Shown: one piece after another, positions 361 through 21,255 of the stretch
Numbering within the stretch: the stretch's first letter is position 1
How the letters are laid out: the number at the start of each line of letters is the position of its first letter
Origin: a virus
Length of the DNA: 23,481 nucleotides
Virus record (IMG/VR): IMGVR_UViG_3300025162_001875
Span: 1-23,481 of that record
Strand: one strand, 5' to 3'
Notes under the pieces: generated by a model
What the model was told of the DNA's origin: nothing
Seen by the model: the letters and a program-made list of their open reading frames with translations, nothing else
The model's database searches: none
Translations under genes and position numbers: made by a program

Positions 361-768
361 TTAAGCCGTTTTATTCCTAGCAGGTTTTTTGCTTGATTTT
401 AGCACTTGCATTTTTAATTCATAAAGTTCGGTCGTTACCGCATCGAGCTGGAGCATTTTTTCAATCAGTTTATTTTGAACGGCAATTAGTTCCTTGTTTT
501 CGGCCTTCAATGTTGGTGCTTTCCTTTCTCTTAGTTGCACTTCATTTTCATTTATCATTTCACCATTTCCTAATAAAAGCCATTTTGCCGATATTGTGGG
601 AAATGCCTTTAAAATAAGTATTAAAGCGGAACTGCTAGGGTTAGTTCCTCTTTTTACATAAGTGCTTAAAGTCGTTTCAGGTATTCCGGTTGTTTTTGCA
701 AATTGTCTGTCACTTATTTTTAAGTGTGCAATTAATTTAATAATTCTTTGATTTACAGTTGTTTCCAT
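361..768 (-). CDS. XRE/CI-like phage repressor
   Basis: This 135-residue protein has an N-terminal helix-turn-helix of the XRE type (about residues 7-60: RIIKLIAHLKISDRQFAKTT, then IPETTLSTYVKRG, then NPSSSALILILKAFP). It continues with the segment seen in many Bacteroidota phage repressors (AFPTISAKWLLLGNGEM). The C-terminal half (about 85-125) is a predicted coiled coil, probably for dimerisation, and there is no LexA-type peptidase domain. It is transcribed away from the promoter at 818-849, and two palindromes lie between them, which is the layout of a lysogeny switch. Inference: it keeps the rightward early genes off in the lysogen. It could also be an autonomous regulator of a decayed element. 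Confidence 0.8.
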   Translation of the reverse strand: METTVNQRIIKLIAHLKISDRQFAKTTGIPETTLSTYVKRGTNPSSSALILILKAFPTISAKWLLLGNGEMINENEVQLRERKAPTLKAENKELIAVQNKLIEKMLQLDAVTTELYELKMQVLKSSKKPARNKTA

Positions 769-7229: not shown

Positions 7230-7436
7230 ATGTGCATTCCCGAATATCTTAAAACAAAAGATTTACAGCTAATTAGCAATAAAAGCGCAATCCAATGCGG
7301 GCGTGATTTTAGAGAAATAAAAGCCCTAAACAATAAGGCCGGTAGAAAATCACTTATCACTCAGGCCGAAGTAGCCGATTTTTATGGCCTTTCGTTGGAG
7401 TATATCAGAAGCAAACTAAGTGGGAAAGCAAAATAA
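7230..7436 (+). CDS. Small HTH-like DNA-binding protein
   Basis: A 68-residue protein. The C-terminal part (SLITQAEVADFYGLSLEYIR, then SKLSGKAK) has the spacing of a helix-turn-helix, with AEVADFYG as the first helix and SLEYIRSKL as the recognition helix. It is likely a transcription factor of the middle operon. It is followed by a terminator at 7458-7483 and then a repeat array that could be its own or another regulator's binding site. Confidence 0.55.
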   Translation: MCIPEYLKTKDLQLISNKSAIQCGRDFREIKALNNKAGRKSLITQAEVADFYGLSLEYIRSKLSGKAK

Positions 7437-7608: not shown

Positions 7609-7788
7609 ATGGCATTTACAAACATCCTTTCAGTAATTCAGGTACCTGGGGGCTTTGCAGTGGCAAAAGACGGCATCGCCACCGGCGAAATTTACGACCA
7701 AAAAGAAACGGCTAAAAATCGCGTAAAAGAAATTCGGGCAGAGCGAAAAGCCAAACGCGAAGCAGCTAAACCAACCAAAACCGCGTAA
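7609..7788 (+). CDS. Small basic protein, 59 residues
   Basis: Begins MAFTNILSVIQVPGGFAVAK and ends in a Lys/Arg/Ala-rich helix (KEIRAERKAKREAAKPTKTA). The start at 7609 has an A-rich leader; an overlapping ATG at 7601 opens only a short frame. A basic tail on a small soluble protein suggests DNA or scaffold binding. It is the first gene after the phased repeats and lies 2 nt before the next gene, so it opens the operon that leads to the packaging ATPase. It resembles the small basic proteins at 14242 and 23323 in size and charge. Confidence 0.6.
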   Translation: MAFTNILSVIQVPGGFAVAKDGIATGEIYDQKETAKNRVKEIRAERKAKREAAKPTKTA

Positions 7789-7790
7789 TC

Positions 7791-8417
7791 ATGAGCAAAC
7801 AAGTAACCATCCACACAAGCGATGAAACCTTTGCCGAAATTGACCGACTTTTTGCAGAAGCAAAAGCCACAAACCCCGAACTTACCAAAGGGCAATTTCT
7901 CACAGGCATTGTAAACCTTGCAAAGTACTCACCGGCCGATCAACCCGAACCGGTTGATATGTCGCAATATGTAAGTATTGATGATTTTGACAAACTAAGA
8001 GTTATACACAATACTTTTATTGAAAGCGTTTGCAAACAATTAAATATTGGTCCAAATTCATCTTTTGAAGAAATTGAAACCGAAATTCACGACACCCAAC
8101 AGCGTGCAATGTCTGCACTTGCCGAAAACAATAAAACGGTAGAAGTGGATCGCCCGCTCGACGAAAACGAACTACGGTTTAAGGTGGAAAAACTACAGCT
8201 GGATATTATGCAGGAAACCGCCCGCCGGCTGTCTGCTAAGTTTGGCATTGCCGTAACCGTTGCCGACTTGATGGTAGATGTAACCGTTCGCTACATTGTG
8301 GAACGACATACAGAATGGTTTTTCCCCTTTGTTATCGCCCCGAATGAATTTGAGAGCTTAACCGGACATAAATACAAACAATTGCTTTTATGGCTAAAGA
8401 AGAAACCGGAAGCTTGA
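7791..8417 (+). CDS. Hypothetical soluble protein, 208 residues
   Basis: Opens MSKQVTIHTSDETFAEIDRL, followed by an acidic and helical middle (SSFEEIETEIHDTQQRAMSA) and a C-terminal helical part containing ADLMVDVTVRYIVERHTEWF. The N-terminal strand-helix arrangement resembles a ribbon-helix-helix start, but the match is too weak to name. No membrane span. The next gene overlaps its end by 28 nt. It may be a scaffold or genome-associated protein given its place before the membrane and ATPase genes. Confidence 0.55.
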   Translation: MSKQVTIHTSDETFAEIDRLFAEAKATNPELTKGQFLTGIVNLAKYSPADQPEPVDMSQYVSIDDFDKLRVIHNTFIESVCKQLNIGPNSSFEEIETEIHDTQQRAMSALAENNKTVEVDRPLDENELRFKVEKLQLDIMQETARRLSAKFGIAVTVADLMVDVTVRYIVERHTEWFFPFVIAPNEFESLTGHKYKQLLLWLKKKPEA

Positions 8418-9236: not shown

Positions 9237-9527
9237 ATGTCTGAATTTATTTATAGTATAATTGGCGTTGTGCTTATTGTTGTTATTGGTTTAGGCATGG
9301 CCTATCTCGCCGCTTATTCAAAAACGATTGTCGATTATTATTCCGAAGATGACGTAATAAAAGAAAATCACCCGAAACCAAAAGCCGAAAAGCACGAACC
9401 TAAAAACGCCGCGCGAAACAAAGGCAAAGCAATACTGAAAGCTCGCCGGCAAGGTCATCTATCAGCATTTTGGCACGGCGAAAGATACGGAACCGGTTTA
9501 TATAATTATTCTGAAAATGGAAAGTAA
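9237..9527 (+). CDS. Single-span protein with basic cytosolic tail
   Basis: A 96-residue protein with one N-terminal membrane span (about 5-26, IYSIIGVVLIVVIGLGMAYL) and a basic tail (AARNKGKAILKARRQGHLSA) that could bind DNA or the ATPase. Its end overlaps the start of the packaging ATPase by 11 nt, which implies coupled translation. Inference: a membrane partner in genome packaging. Confidence 0.6.
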   Translation: MSEFIYSIIGVVLIVVIGLGMAYLAAYSKTIVDYYSEDDVIKENHPKPKAEKHEPKNAARNKGKAILKARRQGHLSAFWHGERYGTGLYNYSENGK

Positions 9528-10086
9528 CCAGGAACGCACCACCGAACGCACCATCGTACTGGGAGCTAACGGAACAGGCAAAACCACTATAATAAATAAA
9601 ATACTCACCGGTACGCCCTATAAAAGTCTGGTAATTACGCCCGACGATGTGGAATGGCGACAATACCCCGAAACAGAACTGCAAACGTCAGACGATTTCA
9701 GGTTTGAAGGTGTAAGCCGGCATATTTTCAACCCAGCCAAAACGCGCGGTACGCTGGATCAACTGAAATATTTCAATCGTGGTAACATGGTTTTTGACGA
9801 TTGCAGGGCTTATTTGCTATCAGCCACCGATTTACGCATCCGGCAAGTGTTGATCCGGTCCCGGCAACGAATGGTCGATGTGTTCGCCGTTGGTCATGGT
9901 TTTACAGAAGTGCCCCCGGTATTTTTCACCTTTGCCACCCGGATCATACTTTTTCGCACCGCCGACAATATATACCGTCGTAAGGACTGCCTGAAAGACT
10001 TTGATAAAATGGTAGAAGCTCAGCAGCGCGTCAACCGAAAAGCAAAAAGCGATCCGCATTACTATGAAATTATAAAGTTTTCGTAA
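9517..10086 (+). CDS. Putative genome-packaging P-loop ATPase
   Basis: A 189-residue ATPase with Walker A GANGTGKTT (residues 16-24), Walker B NMVFDD (90-95) and a conserved-looking later block (RQRMVDVFAVGHGFTEVPP, about 117-134). Size and motif spacing fit the A32/FtsK-HerA-like packaging ATPases of PRD1-type viruses (PRD1 P9 is the model) better than terminases, which are far larger and have a nuclease domain. A Zot-like ATPase of filamentous phages is the main alternative, although Zot normally has a transmembrane segment, absent here. It lies between virion membrane proteins and the capsid module. In this role it would use ATP to drive DNA into a preformed capsid. Confidence 0.65.
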   Translation: MESNQERTTERTIVLGANGTGKTTIINKILTGTPYKSLVITPDDVEWRQYPETELQTSDDFRFEGVSRHIFNPAKTRGTLDQLKYFNRGNMVFDDCRAYLLSATDLRIRQVLIRSRQRMVDVFAVGHGFTEVPPVFFTFATRIILFRTADNIYRRKDCLKDFDKMVEAQQRVNRKAKSDPHYYEIIKFS

Positions 10087-11553: not shown

Positions 11554-12105
11554 ATGGCCGAAAAAATAAGCATATACGATTTTCTGAACTGGTGTGTTCA
11601 GATTATCGATCCGGCGGAACTGTCGGCCCTGATGAGCAATTACGGTTTTCCAAATGATGATGTCGAGAATATAATCGATGGACTTCAAAACGACCAATCG
11701 TTTGTTGCTGATTTCGGATCGCTGCTAGCCGAAGGCCTGAAAGCAAATAACGAACAACTAAACCGCGCTATAGGTGGAGTTCATCAATCAAATGATGAAC
11801 TTACACTGAGCGACTGGGCAGAAATTGTTACACATAATGAAATAACCCGTGCGACCGGAAGTGTTGCAAACCAGAATGTAAATTCAGGTGTTCAGCCTTT
11901 CGACTTTAACGCATTAGTAGGCGGAATTATAGGTATTGCAGACCATATTCTTGGTGGAAGTTCAAAAACTACCACTACAACAGGACAAAATACAATTCCG
12001 ACAAATACAACCGGTTCGAGTACTGCACTTTATATCATTATTGCCGTTGTTGTTATTGCCGTAATAGGCATTCTATGGCTTTCCCTTTCGGGACAAAAGA
12101 AATAA
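11554..12105 (+). CDS. Capsid-operon protein with C-terminal membrane anchor
   Basis: A 183-residue protein: a helical, acidic N-terminal half (MAEKISIYDFLNWCVQIIDP onward), a Thr/Gly/Asn linker (about 135-156) and a C-terminal span (about 158-178, ALYIIIAVVVIAVIGILWLS) ending GQKK. It starts 14 nt after the capsid candidate and ends before the strong terminator, so the two are probably produced together. Inference: a minor capsid or membrane protein linking shell and membrane. Confidence 0.6.
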   Translation: MAEKISIYDFLNWCVQIIDPAELSALMSNYGFPNDDVENIIDGLQNDQSFVADFGSLLAEGLKANNEQLNRAIGGVHQSNDELTLSDWAEIVTHNEITRATGSVANQNVNSGVQPFDFNALVGGIIGIADHILGGSSKTTTTTGQNTIPTNTTGSSTALYIIIAVVVIAVIGILWLSLSGQKK

Positions 12106-12131
12106 ACCTGATTTTTAATTGATTGATAGCG

Positions 12132-12166
12132 AAAAGCCCGCCCGATAATTTAGCGGGCGGGCTTTT
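12132..12166 (+). terminator. Strong hairpin terminator closing the capsid operon
   Basis: AAAAGCCCGCCCG and CGGGCGGGCTTTT form a perfect 13-bp GC-rich stem with a 9-nt loop. The A/T ends would let it work in both directions. Confidence 0.85.
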
Positions 12167-12185
12167 GGTATAAAATGCTCAAAAA

Positions 12186-12533
12186 ATGATACAGGTTATT
12201 TATGACGCTACACATCCCGATTTACAAGATTGCCCCATTGGTTGCATTCGCTCCCAGGAGGTAATTATTATAAATCCCGATCTATTTTACCCGATGCGTG
12301 CTTTTGATCAACAGTTTTGGTTACTGCACGAAGAGGGACATATAAAACTAAATACAAGTGATGAAGTGTTGGCCGACAGCTTTGCGTTTGATGCCTTGGT
12401 GGGCAGTCAGTTTCGCAGTCTGAAACAAATATGTGCCGCGCTTGATAGTTTATTGGTGGGCAGCAACCCCGAATTTGAACGTCGAAAATCCTCGCTTATG
12501 GATCGCGCAATCCGCTGGGACGCTACCCACTAA
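12186..12533 (+). CDS. HExxH metallopeptidase-like protein
   Basis: A 115-residue protein with the zinc motif HEEGH (residues 48-52) in FWLLHEEGHIKL, followed 12 residues later by VLADSFAFDAL, where D64 can be the third ligand as in ImmA/IrrE-type peptidases. The N-terminal strands (IQVIYDATH; VIIINPDLFYPM) fit a compact minimal peptidase. It lies between the capsid terminator and the membrane-protein array. Possible roles are virion maturation, cleavage of a structural protein, or cleavage of the repressor as ImmA does; the sequence alone does not decide. Confidence 0.65.
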   Translation: MIQVIYDATHPDLQDCPIGCIRSQEVIIINPDLFYPMRAFDQQFWLLHEEGHIKLNTSDEVLADSFAFDALVGSQFRSLKQICAALDSLLVGSNPEFERRKSSLMDRAIRWDATH

Positions 12534-12546
12534 ATAAAAGAAAAAA

Positions 12547-12750
12547 ATGAATGATAATAACAAATATTTGATTATTGGCTTGGTGCTGGTTTTAGTAGCC
12601 GGAGTAGTAGCTGGAATATTTTTAATTAAACCAACCACACAACCCGTAACGACTACAACCGAAAACAGAGGTTTATTATCCTCAATTTTTTCTGATGCTT
12701 CAGGCGTTGCAACAAAAAATCCAGATATATTAAAATTATTAATGGCTTAG
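12547..12750 (+). CDS. Small N-anchored membrane protein
   Basis: A 67-residue protein with a short polar start (MNDNNK), a membrane span (about 7-27, YLIIGLVLVLVAGVVAGIFL) and a Thr-rich ectodomain. It is the first of a run of proteins with the same plan: charged start, one span, exported or inward-facing domain. It overlaps nothing and lies 6 nt before the next gene. Function unknown. Confidence 0.6.
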   Translation: MNDNNKYLIIGLVLVLVAGVVAGIFLIKPTTQPVTTTTENRGLLSSIFSDASGVATKNPDILKLLMA

Positions 12751-12756
12751 ACCGAA

Positions 12757-13704
12757 ATGGAAAAGAAACTTATTTATATCGTCGTTGCAGTAGTTTTACT
12801 AGCTGGCGGCGTATGGTTTTACAAAAAAAACCTACAAGGTATTGTTGATCCGGCTGCTGCAAAAAAACAAGCTGCCGCAGATACTAATTACGGAACTGAT
12901 GGTTACAACGCTGCCGGATTTAATGCAGAGGGTTATAACCGAAGCGGTTACGATGTAGACGGATTCGGCAAAAATGGTTATAACAAAGCCGGTTACGATG
13001 CCGATGGTTTTAATAAATCCGGTTACAACTCACTCGGTTATAAAGCCGATGGCTACAACGATGCTGGTTATAATTCATCAGGATATAATGCTTCAGGCTA
13101 CAATAAAGATGGTTATAAATCCGATGGTTATAATGCTAACGGTTACAATATTTTAGGCTACAACGCATCTGGTTATAATAAAGATGGCTATAATACATCT
13201 GGTTATAATAAAGATGGAATAAACCAAAAAACAGGTCGTACAATTGATGGTTTCGACATTAATGGATTCAACGAACTGGGCTTAGATCGAAACGGCTACA
13301 ATAAAGAAGGTTACAAGGATGGCAAAAATATCTACGGATATAATGCCGCACAGGTAATGATGAACTCATTAACTCAAACTCAAAAAGACTGGGCTATGAA
13401 TATAGCTCAACTTGCAAAAAATGATTTGATTTTACCGCTTTTTGGCGCTCATAATATGGGTATTTACGACGAAATTAAAGCGTTTACCGATGCTCAACTG
13501 GTTTATTTTCTTTTGACTGCGTATCCGTATTATGACAGTGATACAAATCATTCATTTTCAGAACGATTAAACCACCAGCCCGACGGATGGAATGCGTTAG
13601 ATAATGCAAGCCGTCATCGCGGATGGACTGTGGGACAGGCAATGCAACGAGTTTCCGAAATTAATTCGGCGATAGTAAGAGTTGCAAAACTAGCTCAAAT
13701 ATAA
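12757..13704 (+). CDS. Membrane-anchored fibre-like protein with GY(N/D) pentapeptide repeats
   Basis: A 315-residue protein with an N-terminal span (about 5-21, LIYIVVAVVLLAGGVWF). From residue 45 to 155 it has an unbroken run of five-residue units of form GY(N/D/K)xx (for example GYNAAGFNAEGYNRSGY), about 22 copies. Shorter, irregular copies follow to about 196, then a C-terminal domain of about 115 residues (with KDWAMNIAQLAKNDLI and AQLVYFLLTAYPYYD). The exact five-residue register suggests a regular solenoid or fibre. Inference: a virion stalk or spike that projects its C-terminal domain. No enzyme motif is visible. Confidence 0.65.
   Translation: MEKKLIYIVVAVVLLAGGVWFYKKNLQGIVDPAAAKKQAAADTNYGTDGYNAAGFNAEGYNRSGYDVDGFGKNGYNKAGYDADGFNKSGYNSLGYKADGYNDAGYNSSGYNASGYNKDGYKSDGYNANGYNILGYNASGYNKDGYNTSGYNKDGINQKTGRTIDGFDINGFNELGLDRNGYNKEGYKDGKNIYGYNAAQVMMNSLTQTQKDWAMNIAQLAKNDLILPLFGAHNMGIYDEIKAFTDAQLVYFLLTAYPYYDSDTNHSFSERLNHQPDGWNALDNASRHRGWTVGQAMQRVSEINSAIVRVAKLAQI
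12889..13221 (+). repeat. 15-bp tandem repeat coding GY(N/D/K)xx
   Basis: About 22 degenerate copies of a 15-bp unit with the consensus GGYTAYAAYNNNNNN. The fixed codons are Gly and Tyr/Phe; the last two codons vary (AA, AE, RS, KD, AS, SD and others). Third positions differ between copies, so it is an old array held by selection on the protein, not a recent expansion. Confidence 0.85.
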
Positions 13705-13709
13705 TAATT

Positions 13710-14234
13710 ATGAATACACCAGCCTTAAATAATAACCCATTTGCATTGGAGCCTGATTATTTTCCAACAGATAACGCACCGGTGCTGAATACTGATTACG
13801 TGGGAAATACAGATACTGTTGGTGGTCTTTCGGGTGGTATTAATCCATACATTGACGATGTTTATGCTATTAAAACGACAACTCCAAATACTAAAAAGAT
13901 GCATAAAGGCAAACAATTACAATACATAACCCGCAAGGCTACAACCGGCGAAAAATCGGTTTTGTGGATCAGTAAGCGAGGCAATTATTACGCCACGGTG
14001 ATAGATGCCAAAAAGGACAAAGCATCGAGGGCTATAGCCTATCATCCGGCTACAGGGCGAATAATTATGCCACCACCACCTACACCGGCAGTAACGCCAC
14101 CAGTAGGGCCAGGCGAAGGCACGGTAACAACCCCAACAACTACCACCCCGGCAACAAGTAAAAAACAAAACGTTGCATTTATGGCAGTTGTGGGAACATT
14201 TATAGCATTACTAATTTACAAAATTTTTAAATAA
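13710..14234 (+). CDS. C-anchored protein with Pro/Thr linker
   Basis: A 174-residue protein. The N-terminal part is polar (residues 1-60), followed by a basic, strand-rich section (LQYITRKATTGEKSVLWISK, GNYYATVIDAKKDKASRAIA), a Pro/Thr linker (about 121-150) and a C-terminal span (about 154-171) ending LLIYKIFK. The same C-terminal ending (YKIFN) recurs in the lysozyme at 17165. It is probably a membrane-tethered virion protein. Confidence 0.6.
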   Translation: MNTPALNNNPFALEPDYFPTDNAPVLNTDYVGNTDTVGGLSGGINPYIDDVYAIKTTTPNTKKMHKGKQLQYITRKATTGEKSVLWISKRGNYYATVIDAKKDKASRAIAYHPATGRIIMPPPPTPAVTPPVGPGEGTVTTPTTTTPATSKKQNVAFMAVVGTFIALLIYKIFK

Positions 14235-14241
14235 AAATATC

Positions 14242-14421
14242 ATGGCAACAAAAAAAACTGGTTACAAAGTTTCTTATACTCAGGTTTTATACAATGGAAA
14301 AACCGAAAGAAAAAAAACGGTAATTACCTACAGCACAAAGAGAGATGCTCAAAAATACGCTAATCAGCTAAACGAAAAAAGCTATCTGTCTACTAAAAAT
14401 GCAAGGGTTGTAAAAGCTTAA
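14242..14421 (+). CDS. Small basic protein, 59 residues
   Basis: Starts MATKKTGYKVSYTQVLYNGK, then ERKKTVITYSTKRDAQKYAN and a basic end (TKNARVVKA). It is beta-alpha in appearance, with a strand pair followed by an Ala/Lys helix. The plan resembles the protein at 23323 (strand, then KTAEAAKAK helix), so the two may be distant paralogues. No membrane span. Possible nucleic-acid binder. Confidence 0.6.
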   Translation: MATKKTGYKVSYTQVLYNGKTERKKTVITYSTKRDAQKYANQLNEKSYLSTKNARVVKA

Positions 14422-14452
14422 CTGTCAACTATAAACTATCAATTATCAACTG
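14421..14452 (+). repeat. Heptanucleotide repeat (CTATMAA)4 before a membrane-protein gene
   Basis: CTGTCAA, CTATAAA, CTATCAA, TTATCAA, CTG directly before the start codon at 14453. Third copy of the leader-repeat family at 3851 and 10101. Confidence 0.75.
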
Positions 14453-14716
14453 ATGCTCAACCCTTATTTACAAACAACCAATTACCCCGGCTTTTCAGGG
14501 ATGGATTTTGCCGATGGCGGAATGAATAAAACCATTGTGCCCGCATGGTACGATGCATACGTTCAGGCAGCCGAAGAAAGCGCAAAAACCGTACTGGAAA
14601 AAGCCCCGGCATACATAGCCAGGTTTCAGGACTTTTACAGCCGTAATTTTGTGTTGATTTCAGCTATTCAGTGGGTTGTAATACTGGTTTTGTTTATTAA
14701 AATCTCAAAAAAATAA
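14453..14716 (+). CDS. Small C-anchored membrane protein
   Basis: An 87-residue protein: a Gly/Tyr/Pro-rich start (MLNPYLQTTNYPGFSGMDFA), an amphipathic helix (YVQAAEESAKTVLEKA) and a C-terminal span (about 66-83, FVLISAIQWVVILVLFIKI) ending SKK. It follows a heptanucleotide repeat and starts a run of tightly packed membrane-protein genes. Function unknown. Confidence 0.6.
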   Translation: MLNPYLQTTNYPGFSGMDFADGGMNKTIVPAWYDAYVQAAEESAKTVLEKAPAYIARFQDFYSRNFVLISAIQWVVILVLFIKISKK

Positions 14717-14720
14717 CAAT

Positions 14721-15182
14721 ATGCGACATCCTTATTATCCATATTATCAACGTCCCGGCGCAGGCATTAAAACCGTGCTGATAATTACAGCGGTCATTAT
14801 TGCGCTGATTTTAGGCATTTATTTCTACGCTAAAAGTCAGGCAACGGCCGATATTACAAAGCAATTGCCAAACCAATATACAAACGACGGCACATACAGC
14901 GATGCTGAAGGCAAACAAATACGCGTAATGAGCCAAAGCCTTAAAGATGACTTGCAGGGATTTCACCCGCTGGGGCACAATTATGATTTGTATTATCAAC
15001 TCCTGAAGCTATCCGATAAGATGTTTGTGGGCACAATGATAGATTATCAACGCATTGCCGGCGGTACTACATTTCGAACCGATTTTACAGGTGCAAGTAT
15101 AACCTTTAAAATGTGGGATCACTTGTTTTCAAGTACCTACGACGATGTAATTTCTAAGCTAAATGCTTTAAGTATAGTGTAA
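14721..15182 (+). CDS. N-anchored membrane protein with soluble domain
   Basis: A 153-residue protein with a Tyr/Pro-rich start (MRHPYYPYYQRP), a span at about 16-36 (IKTVLIITAVIIALILGIYF) and a helical ectodomain (for example MSQSLKDDLQGFHPLGHNYD and DLYYQLLKLSDKMFVG). The ectodomain ends TYDDVISKLNAL. Its TAA overlaps the next ATG (TAATG). Likely a virion membrane protein; family not recognised. Confidence 0.6.
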   Translation: MRHPYYPYYQRPGAGIKTVLIITAVIIALILGIYFYAKSQATADITKQLPNQYTNDGTYSDAEGKQIRVMSQSLKDDLQGFHPLGHNYDLYYQLLKLSDKMFVGTMIDYQRIAGGTTFRTDFTGASITFKMWDHLFSSTYDDVISKLNALSIV

Positions 15183-15304
15183 TGAAAAATAAAATTGCCC
15201 TTGCCGTAACGATTATTGTGCTTGCCGGATTCCTTACTTACTGGAATATGCGGGCCGGTACGGATTACTGGGGCTACAAAGTGAATAGTTATAATTTAGC
15301 ATGA
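15182..15304 (+). CDS. 40-residue membrane peptide
   Basis: MKNKIALAVTIIVLAGFLTY begins a single-span peptide that ends with an aromatic tail (WGYKVNSYNLA). It is coupled on both sides: TAATG with the previous gene and ATGA with the next. Such coupling supports real translation despite the length. Confidence 0.6.
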   Translation: MKNKIALAVTIIVLAGFLTYWNMRAGTDYWGYKVNSYNLA

Positions 15305-15525
15305 CAATTGATTTTAAAAAAGACTGGTGGTTTTGGCTTATTTTGCTGTTGATTTTCTTAATACCCTTTGTGGGTGGTGCTTTATCGGTTTCGGCATACA
15401 TGGCTAAAAAGAAACTAAAAGCAAAAACGAAAACAACGGCAGCCGATGAGCCTGAACCCGAAACAACGACTGAAGAAACAAACGAACCTGAACCCAATAA
15501 CGAATTAAAAGAAAAAACAGAATGA
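15301..15525 (+). CDS. Small membrane protein with acidic tail
   Basis: A 74-residue protein with a Trp-rich hydrophobic stretch (about 9-35, WWFWLILLLIFLIPFVGGAL), a basic turn (MAKKKLKAKTK) and a Glu/Pro/Thr tail (EPEPETTTEETNEPEPN). The positive residues after the span suggest the tail stays in the cytoplasm or virion interior. Its end overlaps the next start by 4 nt. Function unknown. Confidence 0.6.
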   Translation: MTIDFKKDWWFWLILLLIFLIPFVGGALSVSAYMAKKKLKAKTKTTAADEPEPETTTEETNEPEPNNELKEKTE

Positions 15526-15941
15526 AAAAAGAGAATATTATAATTGCGGCCTTTTTAGGCTTACTGGTAGTAGCAGCAATAATTATGCTGACGCAGAAAA
15601 AAGCGGTAGTAACCAATCCAAACGGTACAACCGGAAACGGTACTCAAACAGCTAACAGTTTAGGAAATTCAGTAGCTGATTTTTTCAGTGGATTATTTAA
15701 ACCATCGGCAAACTCCGGCAGTGCATCATCAAGCAACTGGATAACCAGGCAAGTAGTAAGCGGATCAATAGTTTCAAGCGAAGAAATAGGCGTCGACCTG
15801 GCAAATTATATTCAGGAAAACCCGGCGGATTATGGTTTGAGTTATGCTGATTTCGAGGCTCAAAACCCATACTATACCGACAAAGGTTTTTCTGTAGGTA
15901 GCTTTATTGTATTGCCAAGCAATATTAATTATGTAGCATAA
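15522..15941 (+). CDS. N-anchored membrane protein, possible wall-facing domain
   Basis: A 139-residue protein with a span at about 5-23 (NIIIAAFLGLLVVAAIIML), a Gly/Thr/Asn linker and a small C-terminal domain (NYIQENPADYGLSYADFEAQ, then GFSVGSFIVLPSNI). The arrangement of the C-terminal domain (helices, then a strand with GSFIVLP) recalls a LysM-like unit, but the fit is weak. It abuts the next gene directly. Confidence 0.55.
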   Translation: MKKENIIIAAFLGLLVVAAIIMLTQKKAVVTNPNGTTGNGTQTANSLGNSVADFFSGLFKPSANSGSASSSNWITRQVVSGSIVSSEEIGVDLANYIQENPADYGLSYADFEAQNPYYTDKGFSVGSFIVLPSNINYVA

Positions 15942-16355
15942 ATGGATAAAAAAACAATCATAACACTTGTAGTTTGTCTGTTGGCGGTGGCTGGAACGGT
16001 TTATTTTCTGTTTTTCAGAACCATAAACACGAAAGCCGACAATGGTATAAGCGACAAAGGCATACCGGGCACTACTCCCGCTAAAAAAACCGATTACCCC
16101 ACGTTTCCGCTGGAGCTGGGCGATAGGTGCGACGAAGTAGGCAAGCTGCAAACAAAGATGAATCAGTGGATGAGTTACAACAATCCAAATTCAGGAGCCG
16201 AATTGCTTATGGTTGACCGGAAATTTGGTGACAAAACACTGCTTTTTGTGCGAATGATTTTTAATACCGATACGGTTACACAGGCACAATATGACTGGCT
16301 AATGGCTTCGAGTTTTCCAGGAGCATTGAGCAAACCAAACTGGCAAATTTTCTAA
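15942..16355 (+). CDS. N-anchored peptidoglycan-binding-like protein
   Basis: A 137-residue protein with a span at about 5-24 (TIITLVVCLLAVAGTVYFLF) and a C-terminal domain of PG_binding_1 pattern: LELGDRCDEVGKLQTKMNQW, then VDRKFGDKTLLFVRMIF, then TVTQAQYDWLM. The pattern G-D-x-x-D-E-V-x-x-L-Q, D-x-K-F-G-x-K-T and a final helix is the usual one for this fold. It would hold a virion membrane to peptidoglycan, next to the lysozymes at 16736 and 17165. Family moderately sure. Confidence 0.65.
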   Translation: MDKKTIITLVVCLLAVAGTVYFLFFRTINTKADNGISDKGIPGTTPAKKTDYPTFPLELGDRCDEVGKLQTKMNQWMSYNNPNSGAELLMVDRKFGDKTLLFVRMIFNTDTVTQAQYDWLMASSFPGALSKPNWQIF

Positions 16356-16614: not shown

Positions 16615-16739
16615 TGGACAATTCAAAAATTATCAAAATAACCATTTTCGCACTTATTGCTATTGGTGCATATTGGTTACTGTACCGAATGACACACTTT
16701 GCAGGTAGTGATACCGGCACAACCGAGATAGCCTTATGA
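16614..16739 (+). CDS. 41-residue membrane peptide
   Basis: MDNSKIIKITIFALIAIGAY starts a single-span protein (about 6-24) with a short polar end (GSDTGTTEIAL). Its TGA overlaps the lysozyme start (ATGA). Position immediately before the lysozymes would suit a holin, but membrane peptides are common throughout this operon. Confidence 0.55.
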   Translation: MDNSKIIKITIFALIAIGAYWLLYRMTHFAGSDTGTTEIAL

Positions 16740-17161
16740 ACATTTCACAAAAAGGATTACAGCTAATTATGAATTTTGAAAGTTGCCGCTTGCAGGCCTA
16801 TCAGGATTCAGCCGGTAACTGGACTATTGGTTACGGACACAAAGGCGGTGTAAAGCCCGGTCAGACAATTACGCAAGCTCAGGCGGTGCAGTATTTACGG
16901 TCGGATGTGGGTAAGGTTGAAAATGCTATCAACCTGAAGCGTTACGATCTGACACAAAATCAGTTTGATGCGTTGGTTTCATTTTTCTATAATCTGGGCA
17001 CAACAGCGATTAAAAAATACGGTTTTCACGATTTGATCAAAGCCGATTCGTGGAACGATGAAATTACCAATAAAATGGAACGCTATGTTTACGCCGGTGG
17101 CCGTGTGGCAGCAGGATTGATAACACGTCGCGAAGCAGAAGTAAACCTTTATAACGCCTAA
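16736..17161 (+). CDS. T4-type lysozyme (GH24)
   Basis: A 141-residue enzyme of glycoside hydrolase family 24. The catalytic triad E15, D24 and T30 has the same spacing (9 and 6) as E11, D20 and T26 of T4 lysozyme, in FESCRLQAYQDSAGNWTIGY. NQFDALVSFFYNLGT is the usual second family motif. It hydrolyses the MurNAc-GlcNAc bond of peptidoglycan. There is no signal peptide or anchor, unlike its partner at 17165. Start by ATGA overlap. Confidence 0.9.
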   Translation: MNISQKGLQLIMNFESCRLQAYQDSAGNWTIGYGHKGGVKPGQTITQAQAVQYLRSDVGKVENAINLKRYDLTQNQFDALVSFFYNLGTTAIKKYGFHDLIKADSWNDEITNKMERYVYAGGRVAAGLITRREAEVNLYNA

Positions 17162-17164
17162 AGA

Positions 17165-17665
17165 ATGAAAACAGGACAAGCCGGATTAGCTCTGATCAAA
17201 AAACATGAAGGCTGCCGACTTGTAGCGTATCTCGATGCAACCGGAACGCCAACAATTGGCTGGGGACATACCGGAAATGTGAGTTTAGGCAATACGGTTA
17301 CTCAAGCGCAAGCGGATGCGTTGCTGGTTCAGGATTTGGCGGAATGCGAACAAACGATAAACGATTCGGGCGTTACGCTCAATCAAAATCAGTTCGATGC
17401 GATGGTTTCCTTGCTTTACAATTGTGGGACAGGCGTTTTTCACAACTTTACGGCACTTATTCAGGCAAAAAACTGGCAGGGCGTAACTTTGAAAATGAGT
17501 AAATATACCATAAGCAAAGGTTTGCAGCTTACCGAACTGGTAAACCGCCGTGCCGAAGAAATTGATTTATTTAATACAAAAAATACTATGCAAACAATTG
17601 ACTATGTGATTTTAACCTTGTGGCTCATACTGGGCGCACTGATAGCTTATAAAATTTTTAATTAA
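17165..17665 (+). CDS. Membrane-anchored T4-type lysozyme (GH24)
   Basis: A 166-residue second GH24 lysozyme, 3 nt after the first, with triad E15, D24 and T30 in HEGCRLVAYLDATGTPTIGW and the motif NQFDAMVSLLYNCGTG. It differs by a C-terminal extension ending in a membrane span (about 147-162, VILTLWLILGALIAYKIFN). The pair arose by tandem duplication or paired acquisition and then diverged. The anchor suggests a virion-membrane enzyme that opens the wall at entry, while 16736 could act at lysis (inference). Confidence 0.9.
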   Translation: MKTGQAGLALIKKHEGCRLVAYLDATGTPTIGWGHTGNVSLGNTVTQAQADALLVQDLAECEQTINDSGVTLNQNQFDAMVSLLYNCGTGVFHNFTALIQAKNWQGVTLKMSKYTISKGLQLTELVNRRAEEIDLFNTKNTMQTIDYVILTLWLILGALIAYKIFN

Positions 17666-18061: not shown

Positions 18062-18331
18062 ATGGCAACAATAACAAAAAGACCTACATCTTTTCGTACA
18101 AAAACGACAGAAGATATTCAACCTGATTTAATCATCACGTCAGGCGCAGTTACATACAATTGCTGGAATATGTTTAAATCCGGTGAGGTAAACTCGTGGA
18201 AAATAATGCGCGCTACAACCACAACTGTAGGCGACGAAACAACTATTAAAAACGAATATCCGTTCGGGTGTGCCGGATATAACTTTAACCCCGATGATGC
18301 GGCTGGTTATTCTTATACATACAAATATTAA
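18062..18331 (+). CDS. Unknown protein, short paralogue of 17674
   Basis: An 89-residue protein, essentially the C-terminal domain of the preceding one: TYNCWNMFKSGEVNSWKIMR and YPFGCAGYNFNPDDAAGY. The shared GCAGYNF core and a conserved Cys in front (TYNC versus TYRC) could make a disulphide pair. It starts 7 nt after the previous stop and ends 9 nt before the DGR target. Probable virion surface protein. Confidence 0.6.
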   Translation: MATITKRPTSFRTKTTEDIQPDLIITSGAVTYNCWNMFKSGEVNSWKIMRATTTTVGDETTIKNEYPFGCAGYNFNPDDAAGYSYTYKY

Positions 18332-18340
18332 AACTATAAT

Positions 18341-20050
18341 ATGAAATCAATAGTAAAAACCCTCTCGGCCTACAATGCGCCGGATGATAATTACCTGAAA
18401 GGGCGCAATTATCTGTTTGTCATTGGCGACAATACGCCGCCTAAAAACGCGCTCGAATTAAAACAAACTATTAATCTGGCCAAGCAAATACAACCCAACA
18501 AAATAGCCAGGAGCGCCACCAATCAAATGACCATATTAGTTGCACCCGGAAATTATCCGTTTGGGGCTACAAAACTGGTACTCGATACGCCATATATTAA
18601 CATCGTATCACTTACCGGAAATATGGATGTATTTATTGATGGTTTATCCATTACTGGTAATAATATATTTGTACGCGGTATTGATGCCGGTACAAACGCA
18701 TTTACTATTACCGGCACCGGCGTAACCGTTGAAAAATCCAGGGGCTTGAATTATGTAAGTGATATTGTAAAAGCCGATCAATCCGATTTAAATACAACCA
18801 ATGAAACCGTTTCCGAAATCGAAACCGACCTGGGTGAAATAACAGAAAACATACTTACCAATTACGCCACCAAAAACGAACTATCAGCAGCAGTTGAAGG
18901 TACTAACGGCTGGTGTGGTGTTCGCTGGAATCCAAAATTATCATCTACCAGCATGACGAGGGTAGGCGATGAAAACTGGGAGCAATTATTCGAAGATTGC
19001 AAGGTAGTTTCGCTTAACGATGATGGCACTGAAGGTGCGACATTGGCCACGTATGCCGATCCTACTATTACAGGTGCAACGGATGAGGGCGTGGGACAAA
19101 TAATGGTACGCATACCACGCAAATATTACCGCGAAATTTTTAATTCCGATGGCGAACTGTGTGGGCTTGATATGAGTAATTTGCCACTTGGCGGCTTCCG
19201 CTTGCACGAAAAATTTGCTTGGGGAAATGGACGGAGTGAAATATATGTAGGTGCCTTCGAAGCAAGCCTTGACACAGCCAAACTGCAAAGCTCAACCGGA
19301 TTTAGTTTATTGACTTCCGTTAATATGCGACAATTCAACAATTACGCAGTGGCGCGCGGTACTGGATGGCATGGTTACGATTACTTTACTAATCAGCTAT
19401 TGCAGACGATGTTTTATATCTATTATGCAAACTTAAATTCTCAATTAGTTTTACCGGCTTATTCTGAACACGCTTGGATGGATGGCCATGAAAAACGAGA
19501 AACAGGCCGCACGGTAGGCTTAACCACTATGAACGGCTATGTAAACGCTCAAGAGGGAGCAGATGACGATATTGCTACAGGCTGGAATGGCGAAAGCCGC
19601 GTAATTGCCAACCGCTTTATGTGGGTTGAAAATTTATACGGCCATGTTTGGAAATTCTTAGATGGTTGTAGTTTCGATGGACGAATTGGTAAGAAAAATA
19701 CAGCTTTCTTAACTGCCAATCCACTATTATTTAGTTCGGTTGAGGCTGACATAATTAGCAAATATACCGATATGAACATTGATCTACCTGCTTCGCCTGA
19801 TTCTGGCTGGCAAGGTTCGCTTGGTGTGGCATTGCTTCCAAAATCTTTTGCTGGTGATAGCTCAACCAATGTAACGGATTATTTATGGAGCTATTTGGAT
19901 AATGAAACGTTGAATTATATGCGCGTTGTGTTTGCGGGCGGCCGTCTGGATATTGGCGCGAGCGGCGGGGTCGCGGCTCGGTATGCGTATTACGCTCTTG
20001 CCCTTGCGAGTGCGAAGATCGGTTCGCGCCTCTGCTACGAAAAAAATTAA
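18341..20050 (+). CDS. DGR variable (target) protein, C-type-lectin/FGE-like
   Basis: A 569-residue soluble protein. Residues about 60-135 read as a right-handed beta-helix-like region (QMTILVAPGNYPFGATKLVL; ITGNNIFVRGIDAG), about 140-185 as a coiled coil, and about 190-569 as a formylglycine-generating-enzyme/C-type-lectin fold (GWCGVRWNP; MVRIPRKYYREIF; RFMWVENLYGHVWKFLDG). The C-terminus carries the variable repeat, residues 529-566, ending RLCYEKN. This is the layout of DGR ligand-binding proteins such as Mtd-type and FGE-type targets. Inference: a trimeric or stalked receptor-binding protein of the virion whose tip is diversified. The paralogue pair before it may be its base. Confidence 0.85.
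   Translation: MKSIVKTLSAYNAPDDNYLKGRNYLFVIGDNTPPKNALELKQTINLAKQIQPNKIARSATNQMTILVAPGNYPFGATKLVLDTPYINIVSLTGNMDVFIDGLSITGNNIFVRGIDAGTNAFTITGTGVTVEKSRGLNYVSDIVKADQSDLNTTNETVSEIETDLGEITENILTNYATKNELSAAVEGTNGWCGVRWNPKLSSTSMTRVGDENWEQLFEDCKVVSLNDDGTEGATLATYADPTITGATDEGVGQIMVRIPRKYYREIFNSDGELCGLDMSNLPLGGFRLHEKFAWGNGRSEIYVGAFEASLDTAKLQSSTGFSLLTSVNMRQFNNYAVARGTGWHGYDYFTNQLLQTMFYIYYANLNSQLVLPAYSEHAWMDGHEKRETGRTVGLTTMNGYVNAQEGADDDIATGWNGESRVIANRFMWVENLYGHVWKFLDGCSFDGRIGKKNTAFLTANPLLFSSVEADIISKYTDMNIDLPASPDSGWQGSLGVALLPKSFAGDSSTNVTDYLWSYLDNETLNYMRVVFAGGRLDIGASGGVAARYAYYALALASAKIGSRLCYEKN
19925..20038 (+). repeat. DGR variable repeat (VR)
   Basis: 114 nt (38 codons) at the 3' end of the target gene that align without gaps to the TR at 20077-20190. 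By hand count there are 25 differences, 22 of them where the TR has A (33 A in the TR), the remaining three at G, T and T. The changes fall mostly on TR Asn (AAY) codons, giving for example Arg, Asp, Ile, Ser, Tyr and Leu, and never create a stop. Confidence 0.95.
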
Positions 20051-20076
20051 CAAAATACAGGTTTGTTGGTTGATGG

Positions 20077-20190
20077 GTTGTGATTGCAGGCGGCAATCTG
20101 AATAATGGCGCGAACGACGGAGTCGCGGCTCGGAATGCGAATAACGATCTTGGCAATGCGAATACGAATATCAGTTCACACCTAAGCTAT
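20077..20190 (+). repeat. DGR template repeat (TR)
   Basis: 114 nt starting GTTGTGATTGCAGG and ending CTAAGCTAT, 38 nt after the end of VR and 102 nt before the reverse-transcriptase gene. Its frame corresponding to the target reads GGNLNNGANDGVAARNANN, with ten Asn codons, as known for FGE-type DGR templates. It would be transcribed with the RT and copied with errors at adenine. Confidence 0.95.
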
Positions 20191-20292
20191 TTTTTTGAAA
20201 GACTGAAACCAACAACCTTGCCGCTTGGCAAAAAATTAAAAATAATGCAACTGTGCTGGTAGGTACGCCGAACGCTCAAGTTTAATAGCAGA
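20191..20292 (+). promoter_or_regulatory. TR-RT spacer with short hairpin
   Basis: About 100 nt between TR and the RT gene. TTGCC and GGCAA around GCTT form a small hairpin followed by an A-run. In the Bordetella phage DGR, the RNA after TR is needed for cDNA priming, so this stretch may serve likewise (established for that system, inferred here). Confidence 0.35.
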
Positions 20293-21255
20293 ATGAAACG
20301 AAACGGAAATCTTTTTGAAGCCGTATATTCAGCCGAAAATGTAAGAGCCGCTATGTTGGCCGCCATGAAAGGTAAAGGGCATTACGGCGAAGTACAACGA
20401 ATTAAAAATGACCTTGAAAAATATGTAACAGAATTGAGCGAAATTCTGAAAACAAAACAGTTTAAAACAGCCGAATACGAAGTCTTTGAAAAGCAATCGG
20501 GCGATAAATTGCGGACAATTTACAAATTACCATTTTACCCGGATAGAGTTGTTCACCACTGTATTGTACAAGTACTTTTGCCAATGTGGGTAAAATTATT
20601 GATTAGAGATACTTACAGCACAATACCGGGACGTGGAATACACGACGGAGTAAGGCGAATGAAAATAGCTTTGAAAGATGTAGCCGGTACGCAATACTGC
20701 TTAAAGTTCGACATACGAAAGTATTATCCGTCAGTGGATCACGATATTTTAAAGCAGATTTTAAGGCGAAAAATAAAGGATGCTGATTTATTGGAGTTAC
20801 TCGATGAAATAATTGATAGTGCCGATGGTATTCCAATTGGCAATTATGTTTCGCAATGGCTTGGTAATGTTTATTTAGCGTATTTCGATCATTTTTGCAA
20901 AGAACAATTACAGTGCCGTTATTATTTCCGCTATTGCGACGACGTGGTTATTCTTAGTGATAATAAAGAATTTTTACACGGTATTTTAGTATCAATAAAC
21001 GATTATTTGGCAAACGAGCTAAATTTAGAATTAAAACAAAATTATCAGGTTTTCCCGACCAACGTTCGCGGGATTGATTTTTTAGGTTATCGGTTTTTTC
21101 ATACGCATACGCTTGTACGCAAGCGGATTGTGCAACAAATGAAACGCCGGTTGAAAAATATAAAATCGATGGCGAGTTACTGGGGCTGGTTGAAACACGC
21201 AGACACATACAAACTAACAACTAAATATTTAAAATATGATAGGAAATTCAAGTAA
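20293..21255 (+). CDS. DGR reverse transcriptase
   Basis: A 320-residue RT. Motifs in order: RDTYSTIPGRGIHDGV (about 105-120), FDIRKYYPSVDH (139-150, Asp140), GIPIGNYVSQWLGNVYL (179-195, with the DGR signature IGNYVSQ in place of the usual QG), YCDDVV (214-219, catalytic Asp216 and Asp217) and GIDFLGYRFF (260-269). It has no maturase or endonuclease domain, and its length is normal for DGR RTs. With an accessory protein it would make adenine-mutated cDNA from TR RNA to replace the VR. The 3' end overlaps the next gene by 20 nt. Confidence 0.95.
   Translation: MKRNGNLFEAVYSAENVRAAMLAAMKGKGHYGEVQRIKNDLEKYVTELSEILKTKQFKTAEYEVFEKQSGDKLRTIYKLPFYPDRVVHHCIVQVLLPMWVKLLIRDTYSTIPGRGIHDGVRRMKIALKDVAGTQYCLKFDIRKYYPSVDHDILKQILRRKIKDADLLELLDEIIDSADGIPIGNYVSQWLGNVYLAYFDHFCKEQLQCRYYFRYCDDVVILSDNKEFLHGILVSINDYLANELNLELKQNYQVFPTNVRGIDFLGYRFFHTHTLVRKRIVQQMKRRLKNIKSMASYWGWLKHADTYKLTTKYLKYDRKFK

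Follow-up and report, generated by a model that had tools for sequence, protein, structure and literature searches.

Phage diversity-generating retroelements (DGRs) are a known route by which tailed phages alter their receptor-binding tail proteins. The accessory protein Avd is frequent among DGRs but not required, and a C-type-lectin fold is usual, though not universal, in their variable domains. Among tailless viruses, the Thermus phage P23-77 (Helvetiavirae) has two major capsid proteins, VP16 and VP17. The accessory gene is missing in about a quarter of DGRs, including crAss-like DGRs assigned to lineage 3, whose order is target gene, variable repeat (VR), template repeat (TR) and reverse transcriptase (RT), and avd is absent from the DGR lineage to which this layout belongs (PMC7290462). 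In one of the crAss-like elements, the crAssphage LMMB DGR, 21 of 28 TR adenines are changed, together with two other changes (PMC7290462).

Here we analyze a DGR in IMGVR_UViG_3300025162_001875, a virus record of 23,481 nt taken whole (positions 1 to 23,481; hereafter the window). It is a new but ordinary member of the DGRs; what is unusual is its carrier. Our reading, which we consider likely, is that the window comes from a temperate virus of Bacteroidota, tailless, membrane-containing and Varidnaviria-like, with an intact Avd-less DGR that would diversify the viral spike. A search of the openly licensed literature recovered no report of a DGR in double jelly-roll, Tectiviridae or non-tailed viruses, a result that does not establish priority.

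The window lacks end repeats and may be a fragment of a larger genome. With its packaging-type ATPase gene as query, we recovered the relatives G001, G002, G003, L058 and L088. G001 is complete (27,269 bases, with 71-base terminal repeats); G002 is 100% identical to it over 20 kb, VRs included, so the pair is uninformative as a comparison for VR polymorphism. No genome near-identical to the window was found, its best RT relative standing at 69%. ATPase loci also occur in Bacteroidales genomes, such as that of Prolixibacter denitrificans DSM 27267, and in 11 of 393 genomes sampled from the order of that species; the host group of the window virus appears to be Bacteroidota-type bacteria. A temperate life is suggested by the CI-type repressor of the window and the tyrosine integrase of G001.

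Table 1. Features of the window, in order of position
Feature	Coordinates	Strand	Evidence or remark
CI-type repressor	361..768	-	Pfam Phage_CI_repr E 1.3e-6, passes its cut-off
Packaging-type ATPase	9517..10086	+	Profile match to P23-77 packaging ATPase; phrog_2666
Candidate major capsid protein, 224 aa	10865..11539	+	Homologues, AF2 model, Foldseek
Block of short proteins, mostly with one terminal TM helix each	11554..16355	+	Hydropathy; collinear in G001 and G003
Two tandem phage lysozymes	16736..17665	+	Pfam PF00959 E 6e-38 and 1e-33
Small protein immediately upstream of target	18062..18331	+	Place conserved in relatives
DGR target gene, 569 aa, probable spike or receptor-binding protein	18341..20050	+	PHROG phrog_5302 'tail protein'
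Target N-terminal domain, about residues 5-143	18353..18769	+	Common to a non-DGR protein of G003
Target variable C-terminal module, residues 193-569	18917..20047	+	Aligns with other DGR targets
Variable repeat (VR)	19925..20037	+	Residues 529-566 of 569; 22/33 TR adenines and 2/80 other bases changed
Bracketing stem, 5' arm	20060..20072	+	Pairs with 20206-20217; covariation in related DGRs
Template repeat (TR)	20077..20189	+	Ungapped alignment to VR
Bracketing stem, 3' arm	20206..20217	+	Covariation in related DGRs
RT-17 RNA (Rfam RF03020), between TR and RT	20214..20295	+	49.2 bits against a gathering score of 40.4, E 1.9e-8
DGR reverse transcriptase, 320 aa	20293..21255	+	Pfam RVT_1 E 7e-16; IGNYVSQ / YCDD
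RT-linked ORF family A, 109 aa	21236..21565	+	Overlaps RT stop
RT-linked ORF family B, 98 aa	21562..21858	+	Follows RT closely

Adenine-specific divergence in the window and its relatives

The first-pass annotation had aligned VR with TR over 114 nt without gaps and counted 25 differences, 22 of them at the 33 TR adenines. Our recount agrees on these figures (hypergeometric p = 1.7e-12 over 114 nt) and on the positions of the three remaining differences, 20153 (G>C), 20169 (T>G) and 20190 (T>C). The last of these is a mismatch at the repeat boundary, and the natural repeat is 113 nt long; within it the adenine bias amounts to p = 2.8e-13, and VR and TR agree at 78 of the 80 non-adenine positions. 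The two non-adenine changes inside VR fit some ordinary drift. Similarity ends abruptly on either side of the repeats, which are spaced 39 bases apart, and a search of the whole record, at every offset and on both strands, recovered no second TR/VR pair. The ten Asn (AAY) codons that TR had been said to spell, and its protection from stop codons, were likewise reproduced: none of the 23 adenine-containing TR codons can yield a stop, and all ten AAY codons encode another residue in VR. A substituted fraction of two thirds lies near saturation for A-to-N replacement, and so indicates that VR was mutagenized, without thereby indicating current activity; that the element is active now, or was recently, is plausible.

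The pattern recurs in the diverged relatives G001, G003 and L058, each of which harbors an RT, a TR and one or two VRs. Across six pooled VR/TR pairs (one from the window, two each from G001 and G003, and one from L058), 116 of 164 adenines are changed, as against 4 of 411 other bases. The G001 pairs (21/25 and 19/23 adenines) and the G003 pairs (16/26 and 18/26) show no change at any other base, and the L058 pair has 20/31 adenines and 2/95 other bases changed. Sister VRs, moreover, differ from each other exclusively at TR adenines (8/8 differences in G001, 13/13 in G003, 21/21 in total). In G001 (L042), VRs at 12305-12386 and 12713-12791 lie in two small adjacent targets and share a single TR at 12896-12978; in G003 (L045), VRs at 7313-7401 and 7730-7815 share the TR at 7910-7998.

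Both of these cassettes, with their two small targets, sit near a replication-type gene, and those of the window and L058 follow the lysis genes and have a large spike-like target. The four RTs belong to at least two lineages and do not form one group in the RT tree, whose well-supported branches require at least two gains or losses. The window RT pairs with that of L006 (support 100/99), and the L006 target is 51% identical to the variable module of the window target, an indication that target and RT may move as a unit. A tailed-phage identity of L006, which has the RT nearest to that of the window, is unproven, since its large ORFs other than the target match no PHROG. Because no RT was found in the examined stretches of 16 bacterial-genome loci and of the viral contig L088, most relatives may lack DGRs; RTs elsewhere in the host genomes fall outside the prophage stretches.

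Cassette, target protein and template RNA

Both RT motifs noted earlier, IGNYVSQ and YCDD, are present in an intact ORF, and the top PDB match of the enzyme is 8ub7_A, 'Reverse transcriptase' (E 2e-39, residues 2-290), which we take to be the BPP-1 DGR enzyme. The cassette runs target-VR-TR-RT without avd. The element had been described as complete; this stands for the target with its C-terminal VR, the adjacent TR and the intact DGR-type RT, but not for Avd, of which no homologue was found (no PF05635 match at E 1 in the window and three relatives: G000, G001, G003 and G014). The evidence supports a structurally complete DGR, Avd aside, and that the element is a DGR, and one of ordinary kind, is virtually certain.

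The target appears to be built from two parts. Its N-terminus is 53% identical to that of a 335-aa protein of G003 (L046:10558-11565) that has no VR. Further along, the protein matches phrog_5302 'tail protein' (E 4e-39, residues 124-568) and, over residues 193-566, tail proteins of crAss-like phages whose genes adjoin an RT; the C-terminal module aligns with the targets of L006 (51%), L058 (29%) and the crAss-like cr50_1 (28%). This combination of a virus-lineage N-terminus with a crAss-like variable C-terminus makes a spike the most likely identity, and we infer that a mobile variable module has been fused to a resident virion-type anchor. Sequence profiles did not confirm a C-type-lectin fold in the target: no Pfam or PDB match passed the threshold, the nearest being FGE-sulfatase with E 0.12 for a single one of the four targets aligned, and the target sequence has no significant similarity to solved proteins. 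The small protein just upstream has homologues beside the corresponding gene in G003 (31%) and L058 (40%).

Two RNA features accompany TR. In most of 27 related DGRs scored, TR is bracketed by a stem of four pairs, one or two unpaired bases and a further seven pairs. Pairing averages 10.2 of 11 when each locus keeps its own arms and 8.3 when arms are swapped between loci, and none of 20,000 permutations reaches the observed mean, a count that gives no exact probability since related loci share sequence. The 5' arm was picked for best pairing in own and exchanged combinations alike, so that its choice cannot account for the excess. The stem pairs poorly in two of the 27 loci (L024 and cr50_1), and two loci beyond the 27 have no hairpin. 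It is visible only by comparison across loci: duplex energies computed for individual loci seldom reach significance, and the TR region of the window folded alone is no better than shuffles (z 0.95).

The second feature, the RT-17 RNA, includes a hairpin at 20219-20230. It exceeds threshold just upstream of the RT in the window, G001, G003, L006 and L018, with matches at 1412-1500 in L040, 1418-1499 in L041, 9913-9995 in L006 and 6132-6228 in L018. The bracketing stem falls outside the Rfam model, and RT-17 is probably the 3' flank of the DGR template RNA. In most related DGR loci, the RT stop is overlapped or closely followed by members of two ORF families. Family A is represented at the 3' end of the RT in 14 of the examined RT loci (window counted), and family B at the stop or shortly behind it in 21, including G001 and G003; the two stand in tandem in the window and L058. 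Searches with either family gave no known function, and it is our guess that they are candidate cofactors in Avd-less DGRs.

The carrier virus

The carrier is apparently a tailless, membrane-containing (Varidnaviria-like) virus, judging from its gene content. The profile of its ATPase family matches the P23-77 packaging ATPase (E 1.4e-8; hhalign probability 96% over 149 columns), a match that falls in the broad FtsK/HerA-type superfamily, and has no match in the tailed controls TP-J34 and crAss cr50_1. It gave no direct match to PRD1 or PM2 either; the link to these runs through phrog_2666, which is matched by the window ATPase and its relatives, is found in PRD1, PM2 and P23-77, and is absent from the tailed controls. 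The label 'terminase large subunit' borne by phrog_2666 was considered as a sign of a tailed phage and rejected, as the search against tailed controls identifies the family with the PRD1/PM2/P23-77 ATPase. Such a label could mislead the classification of tailless viruses. Neither the window ATPase (50,697 phage and 72,556 plasmid records) nor a homologue of the capsid candidate (the same phage records) was matched in these collections.

The 224-aa protein encoded downstream of the ATPase is a probable capsid protein. It has 15 homologues in viruses and prophages that bear the ATPase; searched alone, without an alignment, it recovered no relatives. Its AF2 model (pLDDT 72.8) is mostly beta, and Foldseek returned weak matches, mostly to jelly-roll capsids (TM about 0.25, E > 1e-3), which would be consistent with a capsid of jelly-roll type. 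The profile of the candidate shows no similarity to P23-77 VP16 or VP17.

Hydropathy predicts a TM segment in 12 of the 17 ORFs between 8691 and 17665. One ORF of this region (12757-13704) encodes a 315-aa membrane-anchored protein with many short repeats of GYN type (e.g. GYNASGYNKDGYN); it may act as a fibre or as an adhesive protein of the surface. The tandem lysozymes (16736-17161 and 17165-17665) differ from one another, and the second has a C-terminal TM segment. Scans of 31 further ORFs of the window and 33 of G001 recovered no family of portal, HK97 capsid or tail-tube type, nor did the ORFs scanned in the window and G001 include any terminase apart from the mislabelled phrog_2666. The sole tail-associated matches in these ORFs are lysozyme or peptidase domains, which tail proteins may also have, and the window has no ORF of tape-measure length. 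It is likely, on this genomic evidence, that the DGR sits in a tailless virus lineage, which is an unusual setting.

Proposed function, alternatives and known systems

If the element operates as its parts suggest, the TR transcript would be held by the long-range stem around TR and by the RT-17 RNA 3' of it, and the RT would copy this transcript, erring at adenines. The cDNA would then replace the 3'-terminal VR of the spike gene, giving progeny with altered C-terminal residues; the potential repertoire is up to about 1.5e17 protein variants, with no stop codon. In the virion, the spike would be held by its conserved N-terminus, and the variable module would contact the host surface. Retrohoming activity, spike location and receptor binding are each proposed here, as is the jelly-roll capsid.

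A DGR carried instead by a small tailed phage or a satellite, with head and tail genes too diverged for profiles, is improbable. Target and RT do resemble those of tailed crAss-like phages, the RT is also similar to the one on contig L035, where portal and head genes are present, phrog_5302 bears a 'tail' label, and most PHROGs have no known function. Yet the ATPase family is common to P23-77 and, via phrog_2666, to PRD1 and PM2 while absent from tailed controls, the complete relative of 27.3 kb has no portal or tail-tube family, the TM-protein block is collinear among relatives, and the missing tape-measure-length ORF points the same way. The bias of the repeats themselves (p about 3e-13), repeated in five further pairs of relatives and adjoined by a DGR-type RT, rules out a chance repeat and leaves an ordinary duplication of the C-terminal segment, for which a spacing of a mere 39 bases might speak, with a negligible probability.

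VR may have been mutagenized long ago and retrohoming since lost, and the two interior non-adenine changes would accord with such a history; but RT, target, TR, RNA element and stop-proof TR codons are all intact, TR still equals VR at nearly every non-adenine position (78/80), and conservation of the RNA stem extends across the clade, so that we regard an inactive element as unlikely. It is similarly unlikely that the diversified protein is an intracellular or secreted factor rather than a receptor-binding spike. The DGRs of G001 and G003, near a replication-type gene and with two small targets having no obvious virion link, would suit that role, but the window and L058 targets end the structural and lysis block, behind a conserved small protein, and a non-DGR protein encoded at the equivalent position in G003 has the N-terminus of the window target in common.

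An intact DGR acting on the spike of a tailless virus, the reading we prefer, invites a broader proposal: that widespread, undescribed tailless jelly-roll viruses of Bacteroidota diversify their spikes by DGRs gained at least twice, with a template RNA made of the covarying stem and RT-17, and with families A and B possibly replacing Avd. We consider this proposal evenly poised between true and false. If true, targeted hypermutation of host recognition needs no tail and crosses virus realms as a cassette; stem and RT-17 together would define, in testable terms, the template RNA of DGRs without Avd, and the conserved RT-linked ORFs would be candidates for the missing cofactors of such elements.

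With the BPP-1 DGR (mtd/avd/bRT), the window shares adenine-specific divergence of VR from TR, and 8ub7_A is the best PDB match of its RT; it differs in lacking an Avd homologue and in belonging to another virus class. The avd-less lineage 3 DGRs of crAss-like phages are closer, with the same target-VR-TR-RT layout and a C-terminal VR in a tail-type protein, and the window RT and target are homologous to those of other crAss-like phages as well. This likeness to lineage 3 is one of layout. Unlike the crAss-like elements, the window DGR has a target N-terminus that belongs to a tailless lineage and an apparently tailless carrier of about 23-27 kb, and for it an RT-17 RNA and RT-linked ORFs are described. 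Rfam RT-17 (RF03020) is assigned here to the 3' flank of a DGR template, and its model does not include the TR-bracketing stem.

The carrier itself compares best with P23-77. Their packaging ATPases are homologous over 149 columns, and the two have in common the order ATPase, small ORF, capsid-region proteins, small proteins and lysozyme. The capsid candidate of the window is not detectably similar to VP16 or VP17, and the window lineage is set apart from P23-77 by a larger genome, a repressor, an integrase (in G001) and a DGR.
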